NCBI GenBank assembly: GCA_002069605.1
Contig: MWBQ01000085.1
Span: 1 to 41,838 of the forward strand
Length of the DNA stretch: 41,838 bases
Direction of reading: 5' to 3'
Origin: Candidatus Atribacteria bacterium ADurb.Bin276
GTDB lineage: Bacteria > Atribacterota > Atribacteria > Atribacterales > Atribacteraceae
Numbering within the stretch: position 1 is the first letter of the stretch; each line of letters begins with the position of its first letter. A program made the position numbers and the translations under genes. This document shows, piece after piece, positions 17,346 through 25,981 of this stretch. A model generated the notes under the pieces. It was not told where the DNA came from, made no database searches, and saw only the letters and a list, made by a program, of their open reading frames with translations.

Positions 17346-18284
17346 TTGAAATGTACCGCCTGTAAAGATGAAGCTATTCTTCGAATTAAACGTCACCATG
17401 CTGCGTTTTGTCAAAGATGCTTTAAAATGTTTATTCAAAAACAAACCATACAAGCCATAAAAAAGTATCAAATGTTTTCAAAAAAAGAACCGGTAATATT
17501 GGCAGTTTCAGGTGGGAAAGATAGCATGGCTTTATGGTCGGTATTAACTGATATTGGTAACCAAATAACTGCTATCCACTTAGATCTTGGAATTCCCAAC
17601 TTTTCCAAACAATCTCTTCAAGCCGTTCAACAATTTGCTCAAGATAAGGGCCTCCCGTTAATTGTTATTCATTTAAAAGAACTTTTGGGTCATTCCTTAC
17701 CGGAATTGCAAAACAAGATACCTCGTCCTGCCTGCTCAGTTTGCGGACTCATTAAAAGATATCTACTAAACCATTATGCCTTTCATCATGACTTTTCGGT
17801 TTTAGCTACCGGTCATAACCTCGATGACGAAGCCGCCACCCTTTTGGGGAATCTCCTTCGATGGAGAGAAGGATATCTTCAGCGTCAAAGCCCCTGCTTA
17901 CCTAGTGATTATCCCGGTTTAGTAAAAAAAGTAAAACCCTTTTACACCCTAACCGACCAGGAAATTCTCTGGTATGCCCAACAGATGAAAATCCCTTTTT
18001 GTGATAGCATCTGCCCTCTCTCACAAAAAGCTTCCAGTCTTGATTTTAAAAAGGCCCTGAACGTGATCGAGGAGCAATCACCTGGAACCAAACATTATTT
18101 TTTATTTCATTACTTAGAAAAAAAGCAATTCCTCTTTCCAGAAAAGCAACCAAAGGTTGTTCTCAATAATTGTTCTTCTTGCGGCATGCCTACTACTCAA
18201 GAAAAATGTTCCTTTTGTTCAATACTTGAAACCGCCCAAAGCAAATCTCAACTTTTTATTGGAAAGAATGATATTGAGCTATGA
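17346..18284 (+). CDS. ttuA: TtuA-type tRNA 2-thiolation enzyme (PP-loop ATPase)
   Basis: TtuA forms 2-thiouridine at position 54 of tRNA in thermophiles, using a sulfur carrier. From the TTG at 17346 the protein has 312 residues. There is an N-terminal zinc finger (Cys3, Cys6, His17/18, Cys22, Cys25), and the PP-loop is SGGKDS at 55-60. Cys130, Cys133 and a later Cys (219 or 223) match the positions known to hold the 4Fe-4S cluster in Thermus TtuA. A C-terminal zinc finger reads CSSCGMP...CSFC. A GTG at 17337 is also in frame but overlaps the GGAGGTGA ribosome site, so TTG is preferred. The stop overlaps the ATG of the broken acetate kinase gene (ATGA). The carrier TtuB is not in the window. 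Thermophily is hinted at, not proven. Confidence 0.88.
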   Translation: MKCTACKDEAILRIKRHHAAFCQRCFKMFIQKQTIQAIKKYQMFSKKEPVILAVSGGKDSMALWSVLTDIGNQITAIHLDLGIPNFSKQSLQAVQQFAQDKGLPLIVIHLKELLGHSLPELQNKIPRPACSVCGLIKRYLLNHYAFHHDFSVLATGHNLDDEAATLLGNLLRWREGYLQRQSPCLPSDYPGLVKKVKPFYTLTDQEILWYAQQMKIPFCDSICPLSQKASSLDFKKALNVIEEQSPGTKHYFLFHYLEKKQFLFPEKQPKVVLNNCSSCGMPTTQEKCSFCSILETAQSKSQLFIGKNDIEL

Positions 18285-19463
18285 AAATTATGGCTTTAAA
18301 CAGCGGTGGATCTTCAATTAAATACGAACTCTATGAAATTGAGAAAGAATAAGAAATTTCCCTTAGTCGAGGGGTAGTAAAGCGTTTGTATCGCGATGAC
18401 TCTTTTTGGGAACAAAAGATTAACGGGAAAACCTTTCAAACATCCATATCCCAGTGTTCTCATAAACTAGGTTTAAAAGCCATAATAAACAATATAATTG
18501 AATATGAACCTCTCAATGATCTAACAGGACTAAAGGCAATAGGTATTAAATGCATCATCTGAGGGAATCGAGTCAATTCCACTTCTCTGATTGATTTTCA
18601 CGTAATCAGTACTCTTCGAGAATTAGAAAGCGTAACACCGGTTCACAATTCACCAACCTTACTCACCGTCGACATTTTCCAAAGGATTCTTCCCAGGTCC
18701 CCTGAGTAGGTGTTTTTGAAACTACCTTTCACCAAAGCATCCCCCCAGCACATTATACCTATGAGCTTCCTTTAGGCCTTTGTCAAAAATACAGAATTAT
18801 TAAATTTGATTTTCATGGAAATTCCCATCGATATTTCGGAAAAAATATCTCAATTGACTACCGCATCTAGCCGGGTTATTTCCTGCCATTTGGGCAGTGG
18901 CAGCAGCATCTTTGCAATTCAAGATGGAAAATCATTAGATATTTCCAGTGGTTTTACTCCGTAAAGTGGAATTATTATGTCATCTCGATCGGGAGATTTT
19001 GATCCTAGGTTATTACCTACCTCCAAGAAAAAGAGAAGATGAGCTATTCTGCGATCAATGAATTATTGGTAAAGAAGTCGGGCTTCCTTGGTATCTCCGG
19101 ACAAAGCACCTAAATTTGGGTATTGAAAAAAGCTGCCCGAGATGGAAACGAGCGGGCTTTGCTTGCAATTGATGTTTTTGTATACCAGGTAAAAAAGTAT
19201 ATTGGTTCATTTATCACTTTAATGAACGGGCTTGATTCGCTAATATTTACTGGAGGAATTGGTGAAAACGATTCTTTCATTCGTGAGAAAATTTGTAGTT
19301 ATTTGGATCAGCTCGGTATTTCAATTGACCATGAAAAAATTCTTCACCATCCCCAATCCCTAAACCGATCCATGATGAAAAATCAAACGTCGAGATCTGG
19401 GTTATTCCAATCAACGAGGAATTAATGATAGCTCGAGAAACTTATGCTTATCTTCAGACCTAA
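18281..19463 (+). pseudogene. ackA: Acetate kinase (ackA) pseudogene
   Basis: A full-length but decayed acetate kinase. It opens at an ATG overlapping the ttuA stop with MKIMALNSGGSSIKYEL. In-frame stops follow at 18350 (TAA), 18560 (TGA, where the HRVVHGG motif should be) and 18707 (TAG), then a frame change to VFETTFHQS. Further pieces read YELPLGLCQKY, FHGNSHRY, HLGSGSSIFAI, a TAA at 18962, SRSGDFDP and FTGGIGEN. A last frame change precedes VIPINEELMIARETY and the TAA at 19461-19463. The total span of 1183 bases equals an intact gene, so decay is by point changes and small indels, not deletion. Acetate kinase makes ATP from acetyl phosphate; its loss here implies another copy or a different acetate route. 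Confidence 0.92.
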
Positions 19464-19689: not shown

Positions 19690-20922
19690 TTATCTGCTTA
19701 AAAACTCCTTGGGATTATCATAAAGAATCATTTTCCCAATTTGTTCGGCTGACGACCGGCTCAGATACTTCTTTTCAACTTTTTCCGCCAATACTCGAGC
19801 AATGGTTTTGAGATTGTAAAGAAGAGATCCAACTGCCCCTTCGGCATTCCATGAATCTCCTCCCATCATGATTCGAGCCCCACCGGCAGTTTCAATCCAT
19901 TCCGACAAAGCCATAACAGCATAGGATGGCGACATCACCGGTAACCAAACCAGGTCTAAATACAGGTTCGGATAAAAGAGAGACATGGCTCCTGGCTCGC
20001 CAACCCAGGGGAAACTCCCATGGAAAAGCGATATTTTTAAGTCGTGGAATTCCTCAAAAATATTCCCTAAATGTGAGGCAGCTGTCTCGAAAGCCTTTCC
20101 CGGACCAGTGTGAATTTGGATTGGTAGATGATGATCAGCCGCTTTCTGGAGGCAATAATAGAAAACATAGTCCTGAAAATCTCTTACTTCAGAAGAGAGC
20201 TCGGTTCCATCCTTTTTATAAAAAGCTTTTTCAGCTTGCTCTTTTTTAACCTTTTCAAAGCGAAGTGTCCGATCGTAGGCAACCGCACATTTCATGGTAC
20301 CGATTCCCTCCGCAACTGCTTTTTTAAAAAGATGATCAATGTAAGCAAGATATTCATCAAATGTCTCAATGTGAATTCCCTGCTTGGCAGCTTCGATATG
20401 TGGGTTCATTCGGTCATGATTTAATTTTTCTTTTGAATAGCCACAGAACAACGGATCAATTCTAAAAACGGCAAAATAATGGCTTTGGTCAATATCGAAT
20501 TCACCTAATTTCCAATAGCGATCATGAACAACCTTTTCGACATTGAACTTATCAAAAATCCAATAGTCCAGCATATTTTTCTTTGAATAGCTTTCTCGAA
20601 TAAGTTGGGATAATTGTTCCCAATTATCTTGATTGATTTCATCATCGGAAAAACCATACATATATTGAAAAGCTTCAATGATATACCGTAAAAAGGCGCT
20701 GGCCGGTATTTTTTTCATACCTTGTAAAAGACCTTCTCGGGTTACGGTTATAGTATTGTGATCTCGTGCTCCATAAACAATCCAGGGAAGATAACTTTCC
20801 CGAAGAATGGCCAACAAAATATCGGGATGATCTTGATAAGTATTTTGTGGGAGAAAATGCTCATGGGTATCGATTTTTTTCCAGATCAGGAGCTGATTAA
20901 AAAGATCTTCATAAAAAGACAT
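19690..20922 (-). CDS. Amidohydrolase / uronate-isomerase-like TIM-barrel metal enzyme
   Basis: A 410-residue member of the amidohydrolase superfamily (Amidohydrolase_2 or uronate isomerase type). Metal ligands in order are DTHEHF (His20, His22), Lys211 in TMKCAVAYD, His271 in IQIHTGPG, His301 in LFHGSFPW and Asp356 in GGDSW. The reaction could be lactone hydrolysis or sugar-acid isomerisation; it cannot be fixed from sequence. The start was set at ATG 20922. A GTG at 20931 overlaps the AGAGGTG ribosome site. It is the last gene of a four-gene operon behind two zinc dehydrogenases and an epimerase, which points to carbohydrate or polyol catabolism. The C-terminus (YDNPKEFL) matches the 'Npkrll' ending of this group. 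Confidence 0.78.
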   Translation of the reverse strand: MSFYEDLFNQLLIWKKIDTHEHFLPQNTYQDHPDILLAILRESYLPWIVYGARDHNTITVTREGLLQGMKKIPASAFLRYIIEAFQYMYGFSDDEINQDNWEQLSQLIRESYSKKNMLDYWIFDKFNVEKVVHDRYWKLGEFDIDQSHYFAVFRIDPLFCGYSKEKLNHDRMNPHIEAAKQGIHIETFDEYLAYIDHLFKKAVAEGIGTMKCAVAYDRTLRFEKVKKEQAEKAFYKKDGTELSSEVRDFQDYVFYYCLQKAADHHLPIQIHTGPGKAFETAASHLGNIFEEFHDLKISLFHGSFPWVGEPGAMSLFYPNLYLDLVWLPVMSPSYAVMALSEWIETAGGARIMMGGDSWNAEGAVGSLLYNLKTIARVLAEKVEKKYLSRSSAEQIGKMILYDNPKEFLSR

Positions 20923-20934
20923 TTTTTTCACCTC

Positions 20935-21615
20935 TTAATAAGTTTTTTCACACAATTCTCTAAATTTTCGGGAAGCAGCTTCAATTTCTTCTTTTCCGGA
21001 AAAGATACTGGTAGTCCCGGCTATAAATACATTGGCACCGGCTTTCTTTAGAAGTGGAACTGTCGTCTCACCAATTCCTCCATCTACAGCAATATCAATA
21101 TTTAATTGATGGGACTCAATCAGGTTTTTGATGGTTTGAACTTTTTTTACCACTTCTGGTACAAATTTTTGCCCAACAAATCCTGGATCTACCGTCATAA
21201 CTAAAACCATATCGATATAAGGAAGAATATACTCTAAAATATCTGGTGGTGTTGAAGGATTTAGGGCTAATCCGACCTTTTTCCCTAAATTTTTTATAGA
21301 ACTGACCATCTGATGAAGACGAGATGTGGTTTCAACATGAAAAGTAATGATATCCGCACCCAAGTCGGCAAAAATGGGAATTGACACTTCAGGATTACTG
21401 GTCATGAAATGAACATCAAACAGAAGTTTGGTTTGGGGACGAAGTTTTCGGAGTAAATTGGTACCCAGAGCATAATTTGGTACAAAATGTCCATCCATGA
21501 TATCCAAGTGGAGCATGTTGACTCCACCTTTTTCTAACTTTCGAATATCCGATAACAAATCTAAATAATTAGCACAATCCAAGGATGCACTAATTTTTAT
21601 CATTTGCTCATTCAT
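20935..21615 (-). CDS. Ribulose-phosphate 3-epimerase family protein, AlsE-like
   Basis: A 226-residue TIM barrel. Metal and catalytic residues are present: His36 and Asp38 in HLDIMDGHFVPN, His69 in FDVHFM, DPGFVGQKF, and Asp in VDGGIG. The usual Rpe start (PSILSAD) is replaced by ASLDCAN. The segments LNPSTPPD, MTVDPGFVGQKFVPE and ANVFIAGTTSIF look closer to E. coli allulose-6-phosphate 3-epimerase AlsE, recalled from memory. In this operon it may act on a ketohexose phosphate rather than in the pentose phosphate pathway. The start has GGAGG about 10 bases upstream. It lies between a GatD-like dehydrogenase (61 bases upstream) and the amidohydrolase. Confidence 0.85.
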   Translation of the reverse strand: MNEQMIKISASLDCANYLDLLSDIRKLEKGGVNMLHLDIMDGHFVPNYALGTNLLRKLRPQTKLLFDVHFMTSNPEVSIPIFADLGADIITFHVETTSRLHQMVSSIKNLGKKVGLALNPSTPPDILEYILPYIDMVLVMTVDPGFVGQKFVPEVVKKVQTIKNLIESHQLNIDIAVDGGIGETTVPLLKKAGANVFIAGTTSIFSGKEEIEAASRKFRELCEKTY

Positions 21616-21676
21616 GACTGACTTTCCTCCTTCAGTATTTTTAGTTGAGTCATTAATATTTTTGTGAATTGGTTTA

Positions 21677-22726
21677 TCAGGGAATGATGAGAACTTTGTT
21701 GTAGAATACTTTTTTATCTCTCATCAGCTGGATAAACTCAGGAGCTTCTTCCAAGGTAAGACGATGAGAAATGAAAGGTTTAAAATTAGCTTGGCCAGAA
21801 TTCTCAAATTCCAGAACTGCCTTCCAATCTGATCCAATATGAGTAAATCGAGAATTCCAGGTCCCATGTAACGTCAGCTGTTTTCTCAAAATAAGGCTCA
21901 TCTCTTTAGGGGTTAAGGTAACATCCCGTTCCTGGTTTCCCAAGAGCAGGACCTCGCCAAACTTGTGAGTTATTTTTATGGATTGAACTAAGGCTCGGTT
22001 GCTTCCCGAAGCTTCACAAGTGAGATCGAAACCACCGGCTTCGGTATAATTTTCCACGGCTTTTTCTAATTTTTCTGGTTCGGGAATCATTGCCTCATTA
22101 AAACCATTTTCCCGGGCAAAATCAACTTTTTTTTGATCGATATCGAAACCGATCAAACGCCTGGCTCCTGAAATTTTTGCCCAGATTCCGAAAAGTACTC
22201 CAATGGGACCCAACCCAAAAACAGCAACAGTTTTTCCAAATGGTATCGATGACCTCCGTAGAGCATGCAGGGTTACTGCCGCCGGTTCGCTGAATGCCCC
22301 CGATTCATAAGAAACCTTTCCGGGGAGATCCATACAATTGGCTACCGGAACAGTAACATATTCAGCAAAAGCTCCGTCACGTCGCGATCCAATATACCCA
22401 TAATTTTCACACATTTCATATAACCCGATCTGGCATAAACGACAATTATAGCAGGGAATCAAAGGAAAAACCGTCACTCTTTTTCCAACCCAATTCTTAT
22501 CTAAACTGGGATCGCCAACTTCCTCAACTTCACCAGCAAACTCATGTCCGGGTATCGAGGGATAATAATAAGCAATACCTCCATAAATTCGAGGAATATC
22601 AGATCCACAGATACCACAGGCCTTTACTCGTATTAGGGCTTCTCCTCTCGCTGGTTTTGGTTTGGGAACGCTTAGGAATTGAATATCACCCTTTTTCAAC
22701 AGAACTAATGCTTTCATGGTATCCAT
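21677..22726 (-). CDS. Zinc-dependent medium-chain dehydrogenase, galactitol-1-phosphate dehydrogenase-like
   Basis: A 349-residue NAD-dependent MDR enzyme. The catalytic zinc site uses Cys in ACGICGSD and GHEFAGEVEEVG. The structural zinc has four Cys in CYNCRLCQIGLYEMC, and the cofactor site is GLGPIGVLFG. SDIPRIYGG with YYYPSIPGHEFAG, YIGSRRDGAFAEY and LTLHGTWNS closely follow E. coli GatD, which oxidises galactitol 1-phosphate to tagatose 6-phosphate. The actual polyol phosphate here is not determined. It begins 2 bases after the upstream dehydrogenase with no clear ribosome site of its own, so translational coupling is likely. Confidence 0.85.
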   Translation of the reverse strand: MDTMKALVLLKKGDIQFLSVPKPKPARGEALIRVKACGICGSDIPRIYGGIAYYYPSIPGHEFAGEVEEVGDPSLDKNWVGKRVTVFPLIPCYNCRLCQIGLYEMCENYGYIGSRRDGAFAEYVTVPVANCMDLPGKVSYESGAFSEPAAVTLHALRRSSIPFGKTVAVFGLGPIGVLFGIWAKISGARRLIGFDIDQKKVDFARENGFNEAMIPEPEKLEKAVENYTEAGGFDLTCEASGSNRALVQSIKITHKFGEVLLLGNQERDVTLTPKEMSLILRKQLTLHGTWNSRFTHIGSDWKAVLEFENSGQANFKPFISHRLTLEEAPEFIQLMRDKKVFYNKVLIIP

Positions 22727-22728
22727 CT

Positions 22729-23766
22729 TTAAGGGTTCACCACCACTTTCAATCCTTCTCTTGATTCAGCAGCATGGAAAGCTTCATGAATTTGATCCAA
22801 AGGGAACCGATGAGTAATGTATTGTTCGGTATGAACCATTCTTTTATCAATGATTTGGATAGCTTTTTTATGATGACGAGGTAGGCTACCATGACTTCCT
22901 AATACGTTAAGTTCTTTATAATGAATTAGATTACTGGATATGTTGAGTTTTCTGGCGGTTGAAGCCAAACCACCAAAAAAATTTATTCGTGCTCGATGTC
23001 GTGCTAAAAGGAGGGATTGTTCTTGGGCGTCAGGAGATGCACAGGTAATCATAATGACATCTGGTCCTTCACCCTTAGTAACTCCTTTTACCTTGGCTTC
23101 TATATCAGGGTCATTGCTGAGGAAGTAATGATCGGCGCCATATTTTTTAGCCATATCCAAACGCTTTTGCGACCTTTGGATAACAATGATATTGGTTGCT
23201 CCCATATGTCGTCCTAACTCGATCATCATGCAACCAATCGGACCAGCCCCTATTATACAAAGGGTATCTCCAACTCCCAACTGACTCATCTCCAAACCAT
23301 TTATAGCACAGGCTAATGGTTCTGCCAGACTGGCTTCATCAAAAGATAAAGTATCGGGTATTAGGTTGACGACTTGTTGGTTTACAGTGAGTTCGTTCAA
23401 AAGGATATATTCTGCAAACCCACCAGGAAATTGATAACCGACTGCATAATTGATAGCACAGTTGGTTCCCATGCCATTCTGGCACCAATAGCATTTCCCA
23501 CAAGGAACATCAGCACCGACGGCTACTCGATCTCCAACCCCTAACCGTTCAACACCAGCTCCCACTTCAACAACTTCTCCAGCGATTTCATGTCCGACTA
23601 TTTGAGGATACTTAACCCGAGGATTTCCCGAATGCATAATTCGTAGGTCAGATCCACAAACTGCACAGGTTTTGACTCGAACCAGAACTTCTCCTAGTCC
23701 AACTTTATAATCTGGCACCTCTTTAACCACCAATTGATCAATTCCTTCTAAGACAGCAGCTTTCAT
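22729..23766 (-). CDS. Zinc-dependent alcohol/polyol dehydrogenase (sorbitol or threonine dehydrogenase-like)
   Basis: A 345-residue MDR-family dehydrogenase and first gene of the operon. Catalytic zinc residues lie in CAVCGSDLR and GHEIAGEVVEVG. The structural zinc cluster is CGKCYWCQNGMGTNC, and the Rossmann motif is GAGPIGCMMIE. The AEPLACAINGLE and DVIMITCASPDAQEQ segments are typical of sorbitol or iditol dehydrogenases. It is a paralogue of the next gene, not a recent duplicate (many differences). GGAGG lies 7 bases before the ATG. The 450-base upstream gap has an extended -10 motif and a palindrome suited to a repressor. Confidence 0.85.
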   Translation of the reverse strand: MKAAVLEGIDQLVVKEVPDYKVGLGEVLVRVKTCAVCGSDLRIMHSGNPRVKYPQIVGHEIAGEVVEVGAGVERLGVGDRVAVGADVPCGKCYWCQNGMGTNCAINYAVGYQFPGGFAEYILLNELTVNQQVVNLIPDTLSFDEASLAEPLACAINGLEMSQLGVGDTLCIIGAGPIGCMMIELGRHMGATNIIVIQRSQKRLDMAKKYGADHYFLSNDPDIEAKVKGVTKGEGPDVIMITCASPDAQEQSLLLARHRARINFFGGLASTARKLNISSNLIHYKELNVLGSHGSLPRHHKKAIQIIDKRMVHTEQYITHRFPLDQIHEAFHAAESREGLKVVVNP

Positions 23767-24066: not shown

Positions 24067-24093
24067 AGCCAGAGGGTACGATTCCCTCTGGCT
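24067..24093 (-). terminator. Strong rho-independent terminator downstream of the OsmC gene
   Basis: A perfect 10-bp stem AGCCAGAGGG/CCCTCTGGCT with a 7-base loop, followed on the minus strand by TTTTT. It ends the OsmC transcript after the tRNA-like remnant. Confidence 0.85.
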
Positions 24094-24723: not shown

Positions 24724-25311
24724 TTAAGAAGGAAAACAGATAACTTCCTTTATTTTTAAATCTAGAAAAGAATTTTGATGTGCCGGTCTTAATACCAAAG
24801 CAGTATCTGCTCCCCGGCTTTGCCCACCAACTGCTACTACATCTTGTTTTGATGAAATCATACCAGCATCAGCAGCCATGATGGAGATTTCAACTGCGAC
24901 TTTGAAACCTTGGGATATTCTCCGGAAGCTTTCGGCAATAATTTCTGGAATGCTAATCCCACCGAATTTCTCTCGAAAAGACCGACTCACTCCACTCAGG
25001 GCGTGAGATGACATCACTATGGGAATATTTTTCTCGGCAAGCAGCTTCTGATTCTCTTTTGAAATCGATAAGGTCTCATTATCAAAAAATCCCTGATGAT
25101 AGGTCACGGCAATTATTCTTCCTGCAAAGCGGAAAGCCTGGGCTACCTCTGCCAAACGCAATGGCGTTTCACCGCTTTTTGTCGCAACCAGTATTGCTTC
25201 TAATTGAAGCAATAAAGCCCTTTCAACGGCTAATTCTAACGTTTTTTGAGTATTTTCTTTACCAGGCTGGGAAAAATAATATATAGTCTTTTCGTGTAAC
25301 CTGTTCATCAT
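24724..25311 (-). CDS. Stand-alone pyruvate-kinase C-terminal-like (PK_C) domain protein
   Basis: About 195 residues resembling the C-terminal allosteric domain of pyruvate kinase without the catalytic barrel. The pattern FSQPGKENTQKTLELAVERA, then ILVATKSGETPLRLAE and a nucleotide-fold strand IIAVTYH, is typical of this group of unknown function. The C-terminal part has VGGQSRGADTALVLRPAH. The start was set at ATG 25311. An in-frame TTG at 25335 lies within the end of phoU and has a GGAG upstream, so it is possible. The gene overlaps or abuts phoU in an operon, suggesting a link between phosphate status and PEP/pyruvate. That is inference. Confidence 0.78.
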   Translation of the reverse strand: MMNRLHEKTIYYFSQPGKENTQKTLELAVERALLLQLEAILVATKSGETPLRLAEVAQAFRFAGRIIAVTYHQGFFDNETLSISKENQKLLAEKNIPIVMSSHALSGVSRSFREKFGGISIPEIIAESFRRISQGFKVAVEISIMAADAGMISSKQDVVAVGGQSRGADTALVLRPAHQNSFLDLKIKEVICFPS

Positions 25312-25318
25312 CTCTTTT

Positions 25319-25981
25319 TTATTGATGAAGTTCAATCATCTCTCCGGTTTCCATATAATAAATCCGCTCTGTAATATTAGTGATATGATCCCCAATTCTT
25401 TCTAAATAACGGGCGATCATAAGAATCCAAATAGCCTGCCTGGTAACTGAAGGATCTTTTTCAATATAATTGACAACTTCCTCATGGACTGCTCGATACA
25501 GAGTATCAACTTTATCGTCATCCTCGACAACTTTTTGTACAACATTCAAATCTTTTTGAATAAAAGTTGCCGAGGTTTCTTCTAACATTTTTACTACGAT
25601 ATCAGCCATTTTTGGAACATCAATGAGTGGTTTAAAAAGTGGTTTATCGGCAAGACGAATGCTAAATTTGGCGATATCAATTGAATAATCACCTATTCTT
25701 TCTACGTCGGTAATGATCTTCATTACAGCGGCTATAACTCGTAAATCTTTGGCCACCGGCTGTTGGAGAGCAATCATTCTCAGACATTTGTCTTCTATCT
25801 TATAATTATATGAGTCGACGATGTCATCCAGCGAAATAACTTCTTTTGCCTTAGCTACATCTCTTTCTTGAAGCGATTCAATCGACATTTGTAACATCTT
25901 TTTAGCAGCCTGGGTCATATTTACCAGATCTTCCTGGACTTCTCTTAGTTGACGGGTAAAATGACCTCGAATTATCTCCAT
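25319..25981 (-). CDS. phoU: PhoU phosphate-signalling protein
   Basis: A 220-residue all-helical protein with two PhoU repeats. Each carries the conserved acidic metal-binding stretch: KIITDVERIGDYSIDIAK in the first and ARYLERIGDHITNITE in the second. It normally connects the Pst phosphate transporter with PhoR and also tempers phosphate uptake. No pst genes or PhoR/PhoB are in the window. AGGAGG lies 6 bases before the ATG, and a good promoter is about 140 bases upstream. Confidence 0.95.
   Translation of the reverse strand: MEIIRGHFTRQLREVQEDLVNMTQAAKKMLQMSIESLQERDVAKAKEVISLDDIVDSYNYKIEDKCLRMIALQQPVAKDLRVIAAVMKIITDVERIGDYSIDIAKFSIRLADKPLFKPLIDVPKMADIVVKMLEETSATFIQKDLNVVQKVVEDDDKVDTLYRAVHEEVVNYIEKDPSVTRQAIWILMIARYLERIGDHITNITERIYYMETGEMIELHQ

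Follow-up and report, generated by a model that had tools for sequence, protein, structure and literature searches.

A dehydrogenase–epimerase trio conserved in one class of Atribacterota may interconvert ketoses through a polyol

We analysed a window of 41,838 nucleotides, the entire contig MWBQ01000085.1 of the 2.52 Mb metagenome-assembled genome (MAG) of Candidatus Atribacteria bacterium ADurb.Bin276. Its phylum, the Atribacterota, is common in the subsurface and difficult to grow in culture; most of its sugar metabolism is inferred. Four ORFs at 19690–23766, all on the minus strand and transcribed in the order DH1-DH2-EPI-AH, encode two zinc-dependent dehydrogenases, a member of the ribulose-phosphate 3-epimerase family and an Amidohydro_2 protein; all four exceed their Pfam cut-offs (Table 1), and all of these enzyme families were already known. 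DH1, DH2 and EPI probably interconvert rare sugars and sugar alcohols by way of two dehydrogenases with predicted different electron carriers. In its specific form, which we hold at about even confidence, the proposal is of a conserved, redox-coupled module in which one ketose (or ketose phosphate) is turned into another by way of a polyol. The main evidence that the three share a pathway is that their linkage is retained in other phyla despite reordering, together with the occurrence of a fusion.

Within the Atribacterota, we searched 50 genomes with DH1, EPI and DH2, 25 from the window's class and 25 from its sister class; many are draft MAGs, and with the strict E-value limits used more distant trios escape the counts given here. 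DH1, DH2 and EPI are contiguous on a single strand in 21 of the 25 genomes of the window's class. Among the four exceptions, the genes reach contig ends in G009 and G016, G018 (75% complete) has EPI only, and G021 (60% complete) has an incomplete DH1 at the edge of a contig. In the window's family, f1, all four genes are adjacent in unchanged order in nine of ten genomes (window included), which is far beyond chance. One of the four is truncated where the contig stops in G001, G005 and G007, and in G009 the cluster is divided between two contigs. The 25 sister-class genomes yielded no close homologue: their best DH1 matches have 33–38% identity and their best EPI matches 34–43%, so that close orthologues were not found there. 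A search for DH1 on plasmids gave no match at 1e-60. An earlier sequence-only reading had described the four genes as consecutive and as one polyol or sugar operon. The ORFs are real, their order is conserved in f1, and two complete zinc dehydrogenases with a ketose-phosphate-type 3-epimerase make up one unit kept across the class; the independence of the genes that conserved neighbourhoods might have revealed, and that would have spoken against that reading, is not seen for DH1, DH2 and EPI and is partly seen for AH.

Among the class loci listed, the neighbours of the triad are PhoU and a stand-alone pyruvate-kinase C-terminal domain, frequently joined by OsmC, and no barrel, ribokinase or RpiR gene was found near it at 1e-6 in the 27 Atribacterota sequences scanned. 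A TIM-barrel isomerase-like gene occurs in seven of the 25 class genomes, with no match in the window's genome (G000) at an E-value of 1e-30. A constitutively expressed housekeeping or metabolite-repair unit, recycling side-product polyol phosphates or rare ketose phosphates, would suit the retention of the triad across the whole class, its position close to an unvarying set of general genes that includes PhoU and OsmC, and the lack of a linked transporter, regulator or kinase at the Atribacterota loci examined. We nevertheless consider such a role rather unlikely, given that the regulators (RpiR or DeoR), kinases or transporters found next to the trio in relatives resemble regulated catabolism.

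These relatives come from two sets: one of 398 genomes, from the phylum to which a genome labelled Oscillospiraceae belongs (Bacillota-type), and one of 201, from the phylum of a genome labelled Armatimonadetes (Armatimonadota-type). Six of the 398 Bacillota-type genomes lie above the DH1 threshold, five at 54–57% identity and one as a mere 43% homologue. The trio is together, reordered, in two of the five, whose loci hold EPI, DH2, a DeoR-type regulator, DH1 and a xylose-isomerase-like barrel; sugar ABC transporter genes come directly after in one locus, and a different transporter cluster lies further along in the other. DH1 is more frequent in the Armatimonadota-type set (25 of 201 genomes, 49–59% identity), and we retrieved all 25 loci and scanned them by tblastn. 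On the strand of DH1, 19 have DH2 adjacent to it, 18 have EPI and 17 have both, in several orders (EPI-DH2-DH1, DH2-DH1-EPI, EPI-DH1-DH2 and DH1-kinase-EPI). At 11 of these loci, EPI forms the C-terminal half, and a TIM barrel the N-terminal half, of a fusion protein roughly 550–740 aa long (L175, L180, L182, L184–L189, L191 and L197); of three fusions compared with Pfam, the N-terminal half is xylose-isomerase-like in two and has no match in the third. Seven further loci have a separate barrel gene. An RpiR-type regulator comes before the fusion in five loci, and two of the 25 have a PfkB-family kinase between DH1 and EPI, one passing the ribokinase cut-off of 299.65 bits (337.0) and one just missing it (298.6). 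The sequence-only reading had the gene set right, and its remark that no kinase is included holds for the window; in relatives, however, the trio has linked genes for ribokinase-like proteins, isomerases and transporters.

At the positions known from medium-chain dehydrogenases, the alignment shows all zinc ligands intact in both DH1 and DH2, with CHEE at the catalytic site and CCCC at the structural one. DH2 lies on the GatD side of the family, as had been suggested: its closest solved structure is GatD (4a2c), it groups with GatD in the tree, and its top NCBIfam model is galactitol-1-phosphate 5-dehydrogenase GatD (NF007642), at 203.8 bits against a cut-off of 550. DH1 had been called sorbitol-dehydrogenase-like, a label that proved too specific; its closest solved structures are threonine dehydrogenases and RspB, and it reaches no NCBIfam equivalog cut-off. 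In a tree that included nine of the 25 Armatimonadota-type loci, DH1 of the Atribacterota, Armatimonadota-type and Bacillota-type loci forms one clade (support 100/99) with paralogues outside, and DH2 of the same loci forms a clade (82/59) nested in a group with GatD (88/91). The positions of the E. coli references in the trees are unsure because of long branches. Paralogues of DH1 and DH2 also occur in three microcompartment-type loci (L128, L129 and L133), together with a PduL-like phosphotransacylase, a DeoC-like aldolase and FGGY kinases.

The two dehydrogenases differ at the end of strand beta-2. NAD-dependent zinc dehydrogenases have Asp or Glu at this position; NADP-type enzymes have no acidic residue there and Arg-Ser next. 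DH1 of the window has Q197-R198-S199, a pattern of the NADP type that its class orthologues share. QRS is invariant across eight class orthologues, is present in all eight DH1-clade rows of the dehydrogenase alignment, and recurs in 22 of the 25 Armatimonadota-type DH1 proteins (the other three have QRP, QRG and ELS). At the same place DH2 has Asp in all 18 Armatimonadota-type partners and Asp or Glu in all eight class rows. Dehydrogenase paralogues from the same genomes also have Asp or Glu, with one Bacillota-type paralogue showing NRS. This split pairing, QRS in DH1 with Asp or Glu in DH2, is conserved across phyla at the level of sequence. QRS resembles the corresponding motif of an NADP-dependent ketose reductase and of an engineered xylitol dehydrogenase; the accessible part of PMC9895041 attests that an insect NADP-dependent ketose reductase and a xylitol dehydrogenase engineering study exist, and no more than that. 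We predict that DH1 is NADP(H)-dependent and DH2 NAD(H)-dependent.

EPI exceeds the cut-offs of both PF00834 (225.9 bits against 21.1) and the rpe model TIGR01163 (226.9 against 212.6). It keeps the active-site motifs of the family, HxDxMDGxFVPN, DVHxM, MTVDPGF and DGG, of which the first, second and fourth are present in every triad EPI row. The proposal that it is AlsE-like stands only in part: EPI shares one additional residue with AlsE, and it falls below the D-allulose-6-phosphate 3-epimerase AlsE model NF007266 (194.6 of 271 bits) while passing that for rpe. It is the genome's second Rpe copy, the other lying on contig C47 at 39% identity. A separate dehydrogenase-plus-epimerase pair occurs at L124 and L125 with a SorC-type regulator and a fucose-isomerase-like protein, whose top NCBIfam model is sulfoquinovose isomerase at a score far under the cut-off.

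In the scheme that we infer, DH1 working on NADP(H) and DH2 on NAD(H) would act successively on one shared polyol, converting ketose A into ketose B. Reducing power would be shifted between NADPH and NADH, a transfer that would give the route a direction. EPI would invert C3 of a ketose phosphate, which could then enter central metabolism as xylulose-5-phosphate or fructose-6-phosphate. A TIM-barrel isomerase and an RpiR- or DeoR-type regulator, and sometimes also a ribokinase-like kinase, would complete the set in other phyla; only in the relatives are there signs of isomerase entry and ribokinase phosphorylation.

Several observations weigh against this scheme. The window operon has no PTS, kinase, transporter or regulator gene. 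In three other Bacillota-type genomes DH1 lies, without DH2 or EPI, at an L-rhamnose locus that also encodes an aldolase, an SDR protein, rhamnose isomerase and a rhamnulokinase-like kinase. Neither DH2 nor EPI lies beside DH1 in five of the 25 Armatimonadota-type loci, two of which (L178 and L193) have DH1 close to a contig end. Support for the DH2 clade is moderate, and cofactor use is a prediction because it draws on a single motif and on a likeness to NADP enzymes that is general background.

While it is possible that DH1 and DH2 instead serve parallel polyol-phosphate catabolism, each oxidising a different pentitol or hexitol phosphate (for example arabitol 1- and 5-phosphates) with EPI joining the ketose-phosphate products and no redox-coupled interconversion, we regard this as a minority reading with perhaps some chance of being correct. 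The GatD-like character of DH2 agrees with it, as does the Bacillus methanolicus arabitol phosphate route, where the part of PMC6685057 available to us describes a PTS and a single co-induced cluster holding the arabitol phosphate dehydrogenase gene atlD together with another gene, annotated as galactitol-1-phosphate 5-dehydrogenase (GatD-like). That cluster, too, has two zinc-type polyol-phosphate dehydrogenase genes, and its pentulose phosphate products are joined by Rpe; as far as that part of the source goes, however, the PTS is in the cluster and the epimerase elsewhere, whereas the window has no PTS, its operon includes a dedicated epimerase, and the cofactors are predicted to be split. 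The window operon also lacks any PTS or kinase gene that could make the phosphates, and parallel catabolism does not need a split cofactor motif, yet the motif is kept across phyla.

The module has partial counterparts in two other known systems. The E. coli als operon (AlsR, AlsBAC, AlsE, AlsK and RpiB) combines a 3-epimerase of the RPE family with a kinase and with AlsR, which we take to be an RpiR-type regulator (the match to the RpiR model was made in our analysis), as some relatives of the trio do; als has no dehydrogenases, however, and EPI is under the AlsE cut-off. In yeast, xylose reductase belongs to a different protein family. The yeast pathway, as the accessible part of PMC9895041 presents it, pairs an NADPH-dependent xylose reductase with an NAD-dependent xylitol dehydrogenase, and so resembles our scheme in passing from sugar to polyol to ketose with cofactors that differ between the two steps. 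Unlike the window, where both enzymes are zinc dehydrogenases, it has no linked epimerase in what that part of the source covers. Replacement of the oxidative pentose phosphate branch was also considered as a role for the trio and is not supported, as 19 of the 25 class genomes, G000 included, have 6PGD.

The fourth gene, AH, looks like a family-specific addition to the triad. AH is found in 15 of the 25 class genomes; all ten genomes of family f1 (window included) carry it beside EPI, and outside f1 (G016, G019, G020, G022 and G024) it lies away from the triad, two of these contigs being shorter than 5 kb. In other phyla, none of 39 AH loci, several of them on short contigs, has DH1, DH2 or EPI nearby, and no constant neighbour was found among the 17 of these loci listed. 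AH exceeds the Amidohydro_2 (PF04909) cut-off of 26.4 with 46.7 bits, and H23, H25, K214, H274, H304 and D359 are invariant in an alignment of 32 sequences. An AlphaFold2 model (mean pLDDT 93.9) gave the uncharacterised structure 4i6v as first Foldseek match, followed by uronate isomerases. VIA-align, whose ranking covers the folds in the VIA list, gave Z scores of 36.1 for 4i6v, 33.0 for 2qpx and 26.0–30.6 for uronate isomerases in alignments spanning most of the chain, and at most 20.1 for every other fold listed. The COG3618-type lactonase 4dlf aligns with a TM score of 0.38 and a Z of 18.1 over 242 residues, a similarity at the level of the barrel and well under that of the uronate-isomerase branch. 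The sequence-only reading had suggested that the gene set could process a lactone or sugar acid; lactone processing finds no support in this fold. A FluG-like amidase, considered for a sequence resemblance, was dropped after the fold result.

Profile comparison with E. coli UxaC aligned residues 13–412 of AH with an E-value of 6.8e-5 and a probability of just 63.6%; in this alignment the HxH, the strand-5 His and the strand-8 Asp match, and the DSR of UxaC is DSW in AH. The arginine of this strand-8 Asp-Ser-Arg motif has a role in UxaC. AH matches Amidohydro_2 only and not the uronate isomerase family PF02614, which has no match anywhere in G000. The ranking of the modelled fold together with DSW in place of DSR places AH in the uronate-isomerase branch of the superfamily and indicates that it is not a UxaC: it shares a full-length fold with UxaC and with the uncharacterised 4i6v and 2qpx proteins, but differs from UxaC in DSW and in the K214 and H304 that are invariant in its family. 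A distant AH homologue (31–33%) occurs beside a second Amidohydro_2 protein in a transporter cluster of G007 (L034, 11416–16051).

UxaC is present in ten of the 25 class genomes and in none of the ten of f1, and the two proteins are nearly complementary: 13 genomes have AH only, eight UxaC only, two both and two neither (Fisher p 0.002, uncorrected for kinship). This pattern is merely suggestive, because families and genera are clades and few independent events are involved. Complementarity and fold branch are what one would expect of a uronate or aldonate route in which AH replaces uronate isomerase and DH1 or DH2 is an aldonate dehydrogenase. We think this improbable, the least likely of the three rival readings: apart from the kinship just mentioned, AH has DSW where E. 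coli UxaC has DSR, the EPI family acts on phosphorylated ketoses, and other families have the triad without AH. Under redox-coupled interconversion, one may speculate that AH fills the place of the isomerase in f1. A broader formulation, which we put forward as tentative and on balance doubtful, is that a redox-coupled sugar-epimerisation pathway exists in at least three phyla, with NADP and NAD zinc dehydrogenases back to back via a polyol and a dedicated 3-epimerase, fused in some cases to the partner isomerase, and that the Atribacterota recruited a new isomerase of the uronate-isomerase branch as a fourth step. Full-text searches of open papers, a scope that leaves most subscription papers aside, found no description of this gene set.

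Table 1. Features of the operon and its surroundings in the window.
Feature	Position	Strand	Description
DH1	22729..23766	-	Zinc-dependent dehydrogenase, 345 aa, first gene; ADH_N/ADH_zinc_N
DH2	21677..22726	-	Zinc-dependent dehydrogenase, 349 aa, GatD side of family; ADH_N/ADH_zinc_N
EPI	20935..21615	-	Ribulose-phosphate 3-epimerase family, 226 aa; Ribul_P_3_epim (PF00834), TIGR01163
AH	19690..20922 (revised start; ORF as listed to 20931)	-	Amidohydro_2, PF04909
Intrinsic terminator	24067..24093	-	Between OsmC gene and operon; 10-pair stem and T tail
Acetate kinase gene	18281..19457	+	Adjoins the operon; broken
Pyruvate-kinase C-terminal domain	24724..25335	-	PF02887, stand-alone; adjoins PhoU

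The four genes are closely spaced, with gaps of 2 nt between DH1 and DH2, 61 nt between DH2 and EPI and about 3–12 nt between EPI and AH. Ribosome-binding sites of the GGAGG type precede DH1 and EPI. The GTG start of AH as listed is probably wrong, and the true start is probably the ATG at 20922, judging by the AGAGGTG that precedes it and by agreement with the starts of orthologues. The terminator is conserved in five aligned genus members and sets the operon apart from the upstream OsmC gene. No riboswitch was found upstream of the operon, the only Rfam match in the window being one tRNA, and the surroundings of the operon are not enriched in promoter-like sites relative to shuffled sequence. 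The pieces of the adjoining acetate kinase gene match an intact relative in three frames, and copies near AH in G004 and G008 are intact or open. The stand-alone pyruvate-kinase domain is retained in relatives.

The trio is kept in one class of Atribacterota and missing from its sister class, which makes it a concrete candidate for what separates the two. Its recurrence in other phyla, reordered and fused, provides a set of enzymes that can be assayed, and a function for the trio could serve several unassigned families together, the 4i6v/2qpx group included.

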